DNA of 40,973 bases, from the NCBI GenBank assembly GCA_944363835.1, contig CALVVJ010000004.1:1-40973 (forward strand), in the 5' to 3' direction. The stretch is from an uncultured Bacilli bacterium. GTDB taxonomy: Bacteria > Bacillota_I > Bacilli_A > RF39 > UBA660. Numbering within the stretch: position 1 is the stretch's first letter; each line of letters opens with the position of its first letter. Below, in pieces: positions 7,894 through 40,973 of the stretch. The notes under the pieces are model-generated. The model saw only the letters and a program-made list of their open reading frames with translations, made no database searches and had not been told where the DNA came from. The translations under genes were made by a program, and so were the position numbers.

Positions 7894-9000
7894 ATGAACG
7901 AAATTAAAACATTAGAAGAAAGAGAAAATAATTTAATTGTTAAAGGTAAAGAAAAAGGTTTTATTACTTATGAAGAATTAGCAGAAGAATTAAAGGGATT
8001 AGAAATTGATTCTGACGCTTTGGATAATTTATACAATAAATTAGTTGAAAATAAAATCGAAGTAGTTGCTGAAGCTGATGTCGATTCTAGCAATGGGGAA
8101 ACCAAACTTAAACCCAAAGAAGAAACTGATGAAATAATTTTAAATGATGAAGACATTACTAAAGACATCAATATAAATGATCCAGTTCGGATGTATTTAA
8201 AAGAAATAGGACGAATTTCTCTTCTTTCTAGTACTGAAGAAATGGAAATTTCCCAAAGAGTTGCTGAAGGGGATGAAGAAGCCAAAAGAATTCTTGCAGA
8301 ATCTAACCTTCGTTTGGTTGTAAGTATTGCCAAAAGATATGTTGGTCGTGGTTTACTATTCCTTGATTTAATTCAAGAAGGTAACATAGGTCTTATGAAA
8401 GCTGTTGAAAAATTTGACTATGACAAAGGTTATAAATTCTCAACTTATGCAACATGGTGGATTCGTCAAGCAATAACTAGAGCCTTAGCAGATCAAGCAA
8501 GAACCATTCGTGTTCCTGTTCATATGGTTGAAACAATCAATAAAATGTCTCGTGTTCAAAGACAACTTACTCTTGAACTAAATCGTGAACCTAGTGAAGA
8601 AGAAATTGCTAAAAAAATGGGTGTTGGTATTGAAAAAGTTCGAGAAGTATTAAAAATTAGTCAAGAACCAGTGTCTTTAGAAACCCCAATAGGGGAAGAA
8701 GAAGACTCACATCTAGGGGATTTCTTGAAAGATGAATCGAGTCTATCTCCAGAAGAATATACGGAAAACGAAATCTTAAAAGAAGAAATAAAAGAAGTGC
8801 TTATGTCATTGCAAGCAAGAGAACAAGAAGTATTAGAGTTGCGTTTTGGTCTTATTGATGGAACTTGTCACACTCTTGAAGAAGTAGGCAAAAAATTTAA
8901 TGTAACTCGTGAAAGAATAAGACAAATTGAAGCTAAAGCATTAAGAAAATTACGTCATCCATCAAGAGCCAAAAAACTAAGAGACTTCCTAGAAGAATAA
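7894..9000 (+). CDS. rpoD: Primary sigma factor RpoD/SigA
   Basis: Housekeeping sigma factor of 368 residues, the size of Bacillus SigA. Region 1.1 is at ~1-75, followed by an acidic linker. Region 1.2 is [11 protein letters not shown], and regions 2.1-2.4 cover [22 protein letters not shown] through [20 protein letters not shown]. Region 3 contains [15 protein letters not shown], and region 4.2 is the helix-turn-helix [30 protein letters not shown]. The promoters annotated in this window match its expected TTGACA/TATAAT preference. It sits between dnaG and trmK with almost no spacing. Confidence 0.97.
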
Positions 9001-24280: not shown

Positions 24281-24533
24281 TAAAACACCCTTCTTCTAAA
24301 AAATTATTTATAACTTCTTTATCTAATTCATCAGTTATTTCTTCTAATACAGAATCATTTCCTATTTTATATATAGCAGCCATTACATTAAGCACCCCTT
24401 TATTAGTCATCTGTCCATCAGTAAATATAACGTAATGTTTATGAGTCTTTTTAGATTTAAAAGTAAATAATATTTCATATTTTTTAATACTACCATCTTC
24501 TAAAACAAATTCTATATATTTTTTATCTTCCAT
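24273..24533 (-). CDS. DUF1292-like 86-aa protein in the retron operon
   Basis: Acidic small protein. EFVLEDGSIKKYEILFTFKSKKTHKHYVIFTDGQ followed by GVLNVMAAIYKIGNDSVLEEITDELDKEVINNFLEE fits the DUF1292 (YrzB-like) pattern: strand-turn-strand, a tyrosine/phenylalanine-rich middle, and an acidic helix at the end. It starts 22 bp inside the reverse transcriptase gene and its end overlaps the metallopeptidase-like gene by 8 bp. Such tight overlaps suggest a fixed stoichiometry, for instance an inhibitor or adaptor of the peptidase, but this is inference. DUF1292 proteins have no established activity. Confidence 0.6.
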   Translation of the reverse strand: MEDKKYIEFVLEDGSIKKYEILFTFKSKKTHKHYVIFTDGQMTNKGVLNVMAAIYKIGNDSVLEEITDELDKEVINNFLEEGCFNV

Positions 24534-25459
24534 ACTAACATATCCCTATATATTATAAATTCTTTATTATTAGTTACTTGAATTACATAATTAATTCTTC
24601 CGAGTAAATTACTTAAATACTTAGTTTTATTATAAATATTTAACTTATTTAAATGATTATCTACTCCATATTTTTTAATATAATACATCTCTTGTCTTAT
24701 TTTCCTTTTATATTCCTTACATATATTTATTTTTTCATTAATAACTAATCCCGTAACAATTTGTCTTTTATTACGTTTTATAACATGTATTTTATCATAA
24801 TTAAGTTTAAAACCGTTTTCTTTTAATAAACTTTTAACCAAATAAATAACTTCTGTAACATTAAAATCTCCCGAAAATGTTAAGTCATCAGAATATCTCG
24901 TATAACTAATACTTTTGTAACTACAATATTTACCTATTGTTTCATCAAACTTTCGCATTACAATATTAGATATATAAGAAGACGTCGGAGCCCCTTGAGG
25001 TAGTTTATTATTATAAGTACATAATTTTGTTAAGAGTACACCTATAGATTTAGTATATATTTCTTCTCTAAAACACCTATTATATACCATACTAAATGTA
25101 ATATTATCAAAGAAATTCTTTATATCTAACTTAAGTATTATTTTAGCATTTACATGAGGTAAGGCGTTATCTTTTAAACTAACTCCCTTTTTATAGGCGG
25201 TTGCATATTTAGATATTTGTTTTTCCTCTAAAATATTATGTAATATATTTCTTTGGACCATTTTTAATAATTTACTAGGTTCATAAATAATCCTAAAACC
25301 ACCACTGTTCTTTGGTATTTCATATTCAATATAATTTCCATCTATATTATTACTAAGATAATATAAAGTTTTCTTATAACGTTTTATATCCCTAGTTTTA
25401 AGCAAATTAAAAGAAAGTAAAAACTTATTGTAAGTATCATCATCTAAATACTTCCACAT
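24512..25459 (-). CDS. Retron-type reverse transcriptase
   Basis: 315 residues, the usual size for stand-alone retron RTs. Motifs in order: GVSLKDNALPHV with the retron-specific NAxxH (98-102), catalytic LDIKNFFDNI (Asp112), LPQGAPTSSYISNIV (153-167), SYTRYSDDLTFSG with Asp191 and Asp192 (most relatives read YADD), LNYDKIHV, and QIVTGLVIN with the retron-specific VTGL (235-238). No maturase, HNH or DNA-binding domain of group II introns is present. The ATG follows AAGGAGGT by about 7 bases, and that site overlaps the a2 end of the msr-msd RNA directly upstream. It would copy the msd part into branched msDNA. Confidence 0.93.
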   Translation of the reverse strand: MWKYLDDDTYNKFLLSFNLLKTRDIKRYKKTLYYLSNNIDGNYIEYEIPKNSGGFRIIYEPSKLLKMVQRNILHNILEEKQISKYATAYKKGVSLKDNALPHVNAKIILKLDIKNFFDNITFSMVYNRCFREEIYTKSIGVLLTKLCTYNNKLPQGAPTSSYISNIVMRKFDETIGKYCSYKSISYTRYSDDLTFSGDFNVTEVIYLVKSLLKENGFKLNYDKIHVIKRNKRQIVTGLVINEKINICKEYKRKIRQEMYYIKKYGVDNHLNKLNIYNKTKYLSNLLGRINYVIQVTNNKEFIIYRDMLVWKIKNI

Positions 25460-25472
25460 ATCTTTACCTCCT

Positions 25473-25631
25473 TAAAAGCAATACAAATTATTGTAAATAG
25501 GAAATGTACGAAGCGAAGCGTGGTACAGCCTGCTGTACTATAGTACATTGAATATTTACTTCATATATCATTTAAAATTCTCTAAAGAGCGACTCGCTCA
25601 ATCGGTCTAAACCTAAACGCTATTGCTTTCA
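25473..25631 (-). ncRNA. Retron msr-msd RNA
   Basis: Closing a1/a2 stem: TGAAAGCAATA (25631-25621) pairs with TATTGCTTTTA (25483-25473), 11 bp with one G-U. The base after a1 is G (25620) in the context ATAGC, as expected for the branching guanosine. msr: a GAGCG/CGCTC hairpin at 25587-25599. msd: outer stem TATTTAC (25553-25559) with GTAAATA (25493-25499), then GTACATT (25543-25549) with AATGTAC (25503-25509), enclosing a GTACAGC/GCTGTAC hairpin (25523-25538). a2 touches the RT ribosome site. Exact msDNA ends cannot be read from sequence. Confidence 0.88.
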
Positions 25632-33079: not shown

Positions 33080-33262
33080 TTATTAAAAACCCAGAAGGAA
33101 GTCCTGCATTGATAAAAACCCGCTCTCGGCAGGTGGGCATCACATGATTTGCTTTAGGATCCTTATGCACTTAATGGATAAGTCTTCTACACCACAAACC
33201 AATTAGATTCCCGTATATCATATTTAGTCGGTTTTATATAGACATAGACTAACCTTCTAGGT
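33080..33262 (-). ncRNA. 6S-like small RNA (probable ssrS)
   Basis: An independent ~180-nt RNA. Its promoter predicts a start at 33262. The 5' end ACCTAGAAGG (33262-33253) pairs with the 3' end CCTTCTGGGT (33098-33089) as a 10-bp closing stem followed by a T-run. AGTC/GACT pairing continues inward, AAACCGA pairs with TTGGTTT, and a CCTGC/GCGGG hairpin lies at the 3' side (~33118-33132). Length, long closed rod and location beside tcdA and rarA match Bacillus 6S-1 RNA. No alignment was done; another structured RNA remains possible. Confidence 0.5.
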
Positions 33263-33268
33263 AACTTA

Positions 33269-33986: not shown

Positions 33987-34967
33987 CTATTTTCTCCTCA
34001 AAGTTGTTTTAAACATAAGTATTTTTCTTTCTATTTGCTCATCTAGTTCTTTTTCTCTAGCATGAAGTTCTGCTCTTTCTATCATTAGTTTTCTATATTC
34101 TTCCAATAACTTTTCTTTTCTTCTAATTCTTTTTTCTATTTCTTCATTTTCTTTTTTAGCGTTTATTACATCAGCATCACTAACTTCATTTTTTAGATTA
34201 TTTAAACCATCCATATTACTAGCAGAATTAGAAAACACTATTCCTTTTTCTTCCATAGTTTTTTGAAGAATAGTTATAGCCTTTTCTCCAATTCCCTTCA
34301 GCTTGAAAACATCTGACCCATAATTGATTAAATCATCTATAGTATAAATATTATTGCGATATAAACAATTACTTATACGCACATCAAGTTCTAATACATC
34401 TCCAACAAGAGGAATACCTAAATCACTATATTGTCTAAGTACTTCTTCTGCTAATTTGTCTTCGTTTTTTAATGTATATCCTAAATCATGAACAAATTTC
34501 TTTAATTGCATTAGACTAGTTACACCAATATTATTAATTTCTTCAATATCAGCATAATCAGTAGTTAATAAATCTCCTAAAAACTCTATTCCTTTCTTTC
34601 TAAGTCCCCATATTATCCTATTAGTTAAATTAAGCTTTTTAACAGGAACTAAAGCCATATTAGGATTTATTCCATAAGCTTTAAATACTACTAAATCATT
34701 TTTAAAAATTACTCCCATATTCATAAGAGCACTTCTAATTGAATGATAACCATTGAAATAGCCTTTTTTTGTTTTCTCAACTATTTCCTCTTCACCCATA
34801 CTTATTAAATCCCCAATTGATTTAATATCTCCATTTTGAGTTAACAAATTATAATATTCTTCTTCTACCCCATATTTTTTTAATTCACTAATAGGTATAA
34901 AATCAGCATTATTATTACGCTCTTCATTATATAAAGAAAATTTAAAAAGCATTCCCAAATTAGTCAT
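33987..34967 (-). CDS. RNA polymerase alpha-CTD-like repeat protein with C-terminal coiled coil
   Basis: 326 residues with about four alpha-CTD-like repeats: around residue 25-90 (ISELKKYGVEEEYYNLLTQNGDIKSIGDLISMG), 110-180 (VKKLNLTNRIIWGLRKKGIEFLGDLLTTDYADIEEINNIG), 195-245 (LELDVRISNCLYRNNIYTIDDLINYGSDVFKLKGIGEKAITIL) and one weaker. From ~262 a long Lys/Glu coiled coil runs to the end. Such multi-CTD proteins without the alpha N-terminal domain would provide several minor-groove or sigma-like contacts. GGGGGAG precedes the ATG. It leads an operon with the 175-residue and 55-residue proteins, upstream of the 6S-like RNA. Confidence 0.7.
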   Translation of the reverse strand: MTNLGMLFKFSLYNEERNNNADFIPISELKKYGVEEEYYNLLTQNGDIKSIGDLISMGEEEIVEKTKKGYFNGYHSIRSALMNMGVIFKNDLVVFKAYGINPNMALVPVKKLNLTNRIIWGLRKKGIEFLGDLLTTDYADIEEINNIGVTSLMQLKKFVHDLGYTLKNEDKLAEEVLRQYSDLGIPLVGDVLELDVRISNCLYRNNIYTIDDLINYGSDVFKLKGIGEKAITILQKTMEEKGIVFSNSASNMDGLNNLKNEVSDADVINAKKENEEIEKRIRRKEKLLEEYRKLMIERAELHAREKELDEQIERKILMFKTTLRRK

Positions 34968-39208: not shown

Positions 39209-40465
39209 TTAAACACTACCTATATCAATTATATAAGGATCAGTTTTAGTACCAGTTCCTCCAGCTAAATTAACACTCGAATCTAAATAAAAGCAAGCTC
39301 TTACCCCTCTATATCCATCGTTAGAATAATATGCATAATATCTATCTATAAAACCTGTAGCGCCAACAAAAAATACTGTAGAATCATCATCTGTTAACCT
39401 AGTTATTGTCCAATCCCAACCACCTAAAAACAACCAATTATTTTCTTGATTACTTGAATTATCATAATAATACAATGTAGTTAACCAATTATCTGGACTA
39501 GCAGCATAACCGTAATCTGATACATACATTAAACCTATTTTAGAATTATAAGTAGTCTCTACATTGTTTTCTAAAAGTTCATATTGGTATACCGTTTTTA
39601 TAGTAGAATGACTAATGTTATTATATAATCCACCACCAATTTGCCAATCAAAATTAACTATAAAATTACTCCAATCACTATTAATGTTTGACAAGAAATA
39701 ATTATTTAATTGAGTATTAAGACTACTTGTAGACCATGAATTATTGTTAGTTTTATTCCAAAAAAATGTTTCTATAATAGATTGTGAGCCTTTATAAAAT
39801 CCAAAAAAATCAACATTAGGATCAGCATTAAAAGCAGACGAAATTCCCAATTCTAGAGAAGTCATATAATCACTTTTTATTAATTTGACTTGTCCATCAA
39901 ATACCCCTATAATACGGTACAGGTTATCTGCTGGACATGTTTCTGCATCTGACCCAAAACATATATAATTATCAGGATCTGCACCAGCATATCTATACGA
40001 ATTGTCTCCCGCTTCTTGTGAAGCATTCGTGTATGTTCCTTGGCCATCATGATAATATAATCCATTTTCTCCATCCATACCAGTATATACTTTATTAGTA
40101 ATATAATATGTCAAAGTCTTAGGCTCCATATCAAAATATACATAACATTTATCATTGTTTATAGCCTCAACCATAACTCTACTTGTAGCATCATCCCAAT
40201 ATATTTCACTATTATTTTCACAACTAGATAAAGTCTCATTAAAAATAAAGCCGTCTTGAGGCCACACATTATCACTAGTTACTTGATATTCACCGCTATC
40301 CACTCCAGTTTCATACATCATAGTTAATGTATTACTTGCTAACACCGAATTATTTCTACTATTTTCAAATACTACCTTGGAACTGTCGTCATAATATAAG
40401 AAAAATAATGAAATAACTAAAGAAAAGACAGCCAAACTAGCCACCACTAGAACACCTTTTTTCAT
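39209..40465 (-). CDS. Large surface protein with C-terminal GYAxSPxDW module
   Basis: 418 residues from the ATG at 40465 (GAGGTG upstream); a GTG at 40474 lies in that site. N-terminal anchor or signal at ~3-25 (KGVLVVASLAVFSLVISLFFLYY). Then a short Cys-bearing region (VWPQDGFIFNETLSSCENNSEIYWDD...ESNDKCYVYFD-like). From ~115 to the end a module with YRYAGADPDNYICFGSDAETCP, NLYRIIGVFDGQVKLIKSDYM, DYGYAASPDNWL and RACFYLDSSVNLAGGTGTKTDPYII. The same C-terminal end is found at 11.3 kb. The module recurs in surface proteins of gut Firmicutes; its function is unknown. Confidence 0.7.
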   Translation of the reverse strand: MKKGVLVVASLAVFSLVISLFFLYYDDSSKVVFENSRNNSVLASNTLTMMYETGVDSGEYQVTSDNVWPQDGFIFNETLSSCENNSEIYWDDATSRVMVEAINNDKCYVYFDMEPKTLTYYITNKVYTGMDGENGLYYHDGQGTYTNASQEAGDNSYRYAGADPDNYICFGSDAETCPADNLYRIIGVFDGQVKLIKSDYMTSLELGISSAFNADPNVDFFGFYKGSQSIIETFFWNKTNNNSWSTSSLNTQLNNYFLSNINSDWSNFIVNFDWQIGGGLYNNISHSTIKTVYQYELLENNVETTYNSKIGLMYVSDYGYAASPDNWLTTLYYYDNSSNQENNWLFLGGWDWTITRLTDDDSTVFFVGATGFIDRYYAYYSNDGYRGVRACFYLDSSVNLAGGTGTKTDPYIIDIGSV

Positions 40466-40609
40466 CAAAAACACCTCTTAGAATCAATAATATCAAACAA
40501 AGCCTAAGAATTATGTCGAACCATGTATAATTAATAATTTTTTGTAAATAATAACTACTAGGCTATATAAATATATTATAAAATTTCCCAGTTTTATTTT
40601 GTAGTAATC

Positions 40610-40663
40610 AAAATGATATCAGACTGACCACTAGCAAAATTATTATCATATTGATATCATTTT
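40610..40663. promoter_or_regulatory. Paired TGATATCA palindromes upstream of the ribbon-helix-helix gene
   Basis: AAAATGATATCA (40610-40621) and TGATATCATTTT (40652-40663) form a 12-bp inverted repeat; each contains the 8-bp palindrome TGATATCA. The palindrome centres are 38 bp apart and end 24 bases before the start codon, a plausible operator pair for an Arc-type repressor. Confidence 0.5.
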
Positions 40664-40686
40664 TAAGAGAAGTTGGTAGGTGTAGT

Positions 40687-40887
40687 ATGAAAACGTTTAA
40701 TCCTTATCCATTAAGAATAGATGAAGAATTAATGGATGAATTAAAAGAAATGGCTGAGGCCCATTCGAGAAGTGTAAATAAAGAAATTGAATTTTTAATC
40801 AAGGAAGCCACTAAAAAATTTAGGCTCGAAAATTCTGATGAAATCAAACCAAAGAAAAAGATACCGCGGAGTCCATGGCGGCGCTGA
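40687..40887 (+). CDS. Arc-type ribbon-helix-helix DNA-binding protein, 3' end replaced by foreign sequence
   Basis: From the ATG at 40687 the product reads MKTFNPYPLRIDEELMDELK, with the rest of the Arc pattern: strand (NPYPLRI), first helix (DEELMDELKEMAEAH), turn (SRSVN), second helix (KEIEFLIKEATKKF). It matches plasmid- and phage-type small repressors, and the 49-aa protein at 11.1 kb belongs to the same fold. After the Lys-rich KPKKK at ~40860 the sequence turns GC-rich, so the last nine codons (to the TGA at 40885-40887) are probably not native. The true C-terminus is unknown. Confidence 0.65.
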   Translation: MKTFNPYPLRIDEELMDELKEMAEAHSRSVNKEIEFLIKEATKKFRLENSDEIKPKKKIPRSPWRR

Positions 40888-40973
40888 CGGCGCTGATCGC
40901 CCGCGCCCGCAAGGAGGGGACCATTTCGGCCTCCGAGCTGGTCTCCGAACTGGAAAAGCTGGACCTGTCGGTG
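40863..40973 (+). CDS. GC-rich contig end, RpoD region 1.1-like fragment (probable chimera)
   Basis: About 110 bases at roughly 67% GC attached to a ~29% GC contig. In the frame beginning at 40866 they read AESMAALTALIARARKEGTI, then SASELVSELEKLDLSV, which resembles the start of region 1.1 of a sigma-70 factor from a high-GC Clostridia-like bacterium. The frame is open to the window edge. It is not in frame with the ribbon-helix-helix gene. Most likely an assembly artefact. Confidence 0.45.

Follow-up and report, generated by a model that had tools for sequence, protein, structure and literature searches.

The right end of the window (the whole stretch of DNA analyzed, 40,973 nucleotides of the forward strand) turns abruptly from AT-rich to GC-rich sequence, which raises the question of whether these last bases belong to this uncultured Bacilli bacterium at all. 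The window is the entire contig C4, one of 99 contigs in a draft assembly that totals 1,175,403 bases and is 90.1% complete.

Composition break and border of homology

The GC content is 27.7% (0.277) over positions 1-40861 and 67.9% (0.679) over positions 40862-40973, a tail of 112 bases which reaches the contig end. A likelihood analysis places the GC change point at 40864, with the eight best points between 40859 and 40866, all within 2.5 log units, and GC is at most 51% in every 111-base stretch of the native part. These values bear out the earlier note on this DNA, which had reported a jump from about 29% to about 67% GC near 40863.

Homology places the border more sharply than GC content, at 40861/40862. 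A search with window positions 40640-40973 against 30 genomes of the genus, own included (E ≤ 0.001), gave matches in 20 of them, and among the matches listed none but the window itself passes query base 222, which corresponds to window position 40861. The matches in G007 (85%), G417 (88%), and G019 (79%) all stop at this position, in agreement with a repeat by blastn, and the gapped local alignment with a fourth relative, G014 (L006), also ends there, its blastn match ending earlier, at 40792. In three more relatives (L011-L013), similarity is limited to earlier parts, up to 40802-40806. Beyond 40861, the first three border relatives stay AT-rich (26, 26, and 32% GC over 100 bases), and all four aligned relatives carry AT-rich DNA at the position of the tail. 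On the basis of this border in relatives, the junction (40861-40862) is precise to about 2 bases. A single contig shows an abrupt difference in both composition (change point at 40864) and homology (border at 40861), the pattern by which a chimera is recognized.

The last native gene (40687-40861, + strand) encodes an Arc-like ribbon-helix-helix protein, according to its match with Pfam Arc (PF03869, E 5.3e-7, in a scan that included the read-through end) and its alignment with four relatives. Its homologues in the four closest relatives (L068, L069, L070, and L006) are 60-61 residues long, and the window retains 58 codons. The gene had been described as truncated, which is correct, but the loss is small: the last two to three codons and the stop. 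More distant homologues (L012 and L013) have a ribbon-helix-helix protein of 66 residues. The window also shows a ribbon-helix-helix frame of 66 residues ending in IPRSPWRR; it is a read-through of the border, and such a gene call would be wrong.

Native continuation of the contig

In all four aligned relatives, the native sequence goes on as agacaag, which is the first arm of a terminator-like hairpin. In L068, L069, L070, and L006 the gene stops within a few codons and is followed by this hairpin, with arms AAGACAAG.../...CTTGTCTT, after which comes the 3' end of a convergent gene. RNA folding gave z-scores of -2.3, -5.4, and -3.9 for the hairpins of three relatives, vs -0.1 for the junction region of the window. 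The hairpin of L069 has no match in the window, and the hairpin pattern has none in the bacterium's own assembly, where a diverged hairpin would escape the patterns used; this absence fits a loss of the hairpin in the gap between C4 and contig C83. According to Rfam, no family lies close to the right end of the window.

The convergent gene is gatB. In the bacterium's own copy, Pfam recognizes GatB_N (E 7.7e-104) and GatB_Yqey (E 6.5e-36), the latter over profile positions 1-132 of 148, and the reading frame has not closed when the contig stops. This copy is located on contig C83 (3823 bp) and runs off its end, which has no foreign bases. A visual comparison of coordinates with one relative (L005) puts the stretch missing between the native part of C4 and contig C83 at about 63 bp, and the true continuation of the window is found elsewhere in the assembly, at this end of C83. 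The synteny of the relatives, together with a gatB which runs off C83, indicates that C83 is the true neighbor of C4 and that the GC-rich tail is no part of it.

Coding potential and affinity of the tail

The tail (40862-40973, + strand) stands out by its GC content, its third-position GC, a Pfam match under the cut-off, and its score with an RpoD profile. Starting at 40863, it has an open frame of 37 codons, which reads TAESMAALTALIARARKEGTISASELVSELEKLDLSV. GC is 65, 49, and 92% at the first, second, and third codon positions, respectively, the third corresponding to 34 of the 37 codons; a third-position excess this large arose in 8 of 20000 permutations of the bases. The tail resembles coding sequence, with the bias expected in a GC-rich organism.

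Pfam identifies a single family in the tail, Sigma70_r1_1 (PF03979), with 15.4 bits and E 0.018 at profile positions 3-33 of 81; this score, on a 37-residue fragment, is under the curated cut-off of 22.5 bits. With a profile of the RpoD N-terminus made from 12 sequences (the window's own and 11 from other loci), the tail peptide obtained 10.1 bits, which none of 5000 shuffles reached; 4326 of these shuffles gave a reported score, the best being 5.6. Furthermore, in the set of 39 genomes of relatives, own included, three relatives match the tail at E 0.35-0.91, and these weak matches sit on about residues 13-38 of their own native RpoD. BLASTP of the tail against the native RpoD gave nothing at E ≤ 100, and no match was found in NCBIfam or PHROGs. 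When the own genome was searched with the sigma family, the tail obtained 14.4 bits, just behind a match on C8 (14.8 bits) that is likewise under the threshold. The peptide is probably region 1.1, the N-terminal part of a sigma factor of RpoD type that belongs to another organism. The earlier note had already seen a likeness to sigma-70 region 1.1, which we consider likely and not certain, with the PF03979 match (15.4 bits, under the cut-off of 22.5), the 10.1-bit profile score, and the weak matches on the RpoD of relatives in its favor, and the empty BLASTP, NCBIfam, and PHROGs searches and the slightly better match on C8 on the other side.

The window holds an intact native rpoD (7894-9000), whose product shows 398 bits with TIGR02393, over the curated cut-off of 354, and 566 bits with NF006666, just under the cut-off of 572, along residues 3-367. 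Besides this gene, the tail leaves the contig as the apparent start of a second RpoD-type gene, and a partial rpoD called from it would be wrong.

Searches for a donor or a second copy

No second copy of the GC-rich tail was found in the bacterium's own assembly, in which the queried contig end has one other match, located on C17 and confined to native positions 40824-40859. No match listed for the relatives extends into the tail. An exact 33-mer of the tail had no match in genome_contigs, two exact tail patterns had none in viral_contigs, and a degenerate pattern for the 11 residues ARARKEGTISA had none in either. The tail (37 residues) gave no tblastn match in plasmid and phage records. The records with partial matches in a distant blastn search (E ≤ 10) numbered 397 for plasmids and 369 for phages; no match spans 80% of the query, and the best E values among the matches listed were 0.09 (plasmid) and 0.1 (phage).

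A search at E ≤ 0.1 of a sample of 392 genomes from the window's own phylum, own included, gave two weak matches besides the window itself, in G302 (E 0.042) and G049 (E 0.096). Both were rejected as donor or as rpoD, since their loci are AT-rich (21 and 36% GC) and tblastn finds no likeness to RpoD in them at 1e-3. Judging by its composition, the tail most likely originates from a different bacterium, and it therefore says nothing about this organism.

Contig ends and assembly type

We compared 162 of the 198 contig ends, taking C1-C80 and C83 on both sides. The right end of the window has the greatest terminal GC shift, with a log-likelihood gain of 28.7, followed by the left end of C1, which is poly-G (25.3), and the left end of C68 (11.4). 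Across the other 161 ends, the last 100 bases have a mean GC of 0.28 and a maximum of 0.50.

Contig C1 begins with 20 consecutive G (G000:C1:1-20, the same as L027:1-20), an artefact of sequencer type which should be trimmed. Poly-G is a familiar artefact of two-color sequencers, and its presence at the left end of C1 indicates that raw-read junk survives at contig ends in this assembly. Twelve end pairs show an exact suffix-prefix overlap of 77 bases, and the only other exact overlaps of at least 20 bases have 64 and 31. The metaSPAdes default is k=77, and the twelve overlaps are as expected for a de Bruijn short-read assembly with this k. Inexact overlaps at several other end pairs suggest strain variation. 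Altogether, this looks like a short-read assembly that kept unsupported end sequence.

At the opposite side of the window, positions 1-93 overlap the right end of C30 over 93 bases with 96.8% identity, which makes C30 the likely left neighbor.

Other features of the window

The window contains a gene for a retron-type reverse transcriptase at 24512-25459 (- strand), which matches the PADLOC models RT_Ec107-like (E 3.8e-121) and RT_III-A (E 5.3e-105) and Pfam RVT_1; the region upstream of it, at about 25480-25600, could hold its candidate non-coding RNA. A 6S RNA is located at 33084-33266 (- strand; Rfam RF00013, 62.2 bits, above the gathering score). At 33987-34967 (- strand), a 326-residue protein is encoded with two stretches matching the C-terminal domain of the RNA polymerase alpha subunit, PF03118 (E 2.5e-20) being the sole Pfam family found in it. 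In addition, positions 40126-40334 (- strand), within a putative surface protein gene (39209-40474), belong to a multicopy family: the region recurs with 68-73% identity at at least eight other places in the genome and at many in relatives, and the only family match is a weak one with DUF6273 (E 0.26).

Origin of the contig end

The contig end is almost certainly chimeric: in this short-read draft assembly, the tail would come from a GC-rich rpoD-like gene joined to the native sequence by mistake. A chimeric end had been suspected in the earlier note, and it is supported by the synteny of the relatives and by the location of gatB on C83 without a foreign tail. According to this synteny, the native contig ends at 40861, at the first hairpin arm between the ribbon-helix-helix gene and gatB, and an assembly gap of roughly 63 bp separates this native end from C83. 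Most likely, a chimeric fragment from the library, or a spurious link in the assembly graph, added the 112 bases where the hairpin begins with its A-rich stretch, and they would stem from an rpoD-like gene of a GC-rich bacterium sequenced together with this one. At k=77, one 150-base read (assumed length) that covers the 112-base tail leaves only about 38 native bases; since the tail is longer than k, the join may go back to more than one read, or to a link formed at a smaller k. The tail is without function in this organism.

A real insertion, by which a GC-rich mobile or transferred segment with a sigma-factor gene would, in this strain, separate the ribbon-helix-helix gene from gatB, is very improbable. 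The junction does fall on an intergenic terminator-like hairpin, a place that tolerates insertions, but C83, on the gatB side, ends within gatB without foreign bases, the matches listed for relatives all stop short of the tail, and no mobile-element signature was found in it, the PHROG search and tblastn against phage and plasmid records being empty with 37 residues as query. We also regard as highly unlikely that a foreign GC-rich segment with a second RpoD-like sigma gene is truly integrated there in part of the population. That the tail could be native to this genome, as a region of unusually high GC content, is extremely improbable: beyond its presence on the contig nothing speaks for it, and against it stand the 51% GC ceiling of the 111-base native stretches in the window, the AT-rich DNA here in all four aligned relatives, and the third-position GC of 92% in the tail.

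With the chimeric end as the preferred explanation, the result is a matter of quality control only: bases 40862-40973 should be trimmed as an ordinary artefact and not read as a biological feature. As this case shows, the synteny of relatives and a survey of contig ends can do much to decide whether a suspected chimera is real, even when no reads are at hand.

Comparison with known systems

With respect to sigma-70 region 1.1 (PF03979), the tail differs in scoring below the curated cut-off, in having 37 residues, and in showing no BLASTP likeness to the native RpoD; it resembles this region in fitting profile positions 3-33 of 81, in its score with the RpoD N-terminus profile, and in its weak matches in relatives. 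Chimeric contigs which join sequences of different organisms are treated, in passages of PMC10978663, as a well-known problem of draft and metagenome assemblies. The tail analyzed here looks bacterial, unlike a vector, and no donor match was found in our searches; its likeness to the chimeric contamination described in those passages lies in the join, as the contig of the window appears to unite sequences of different organisms.
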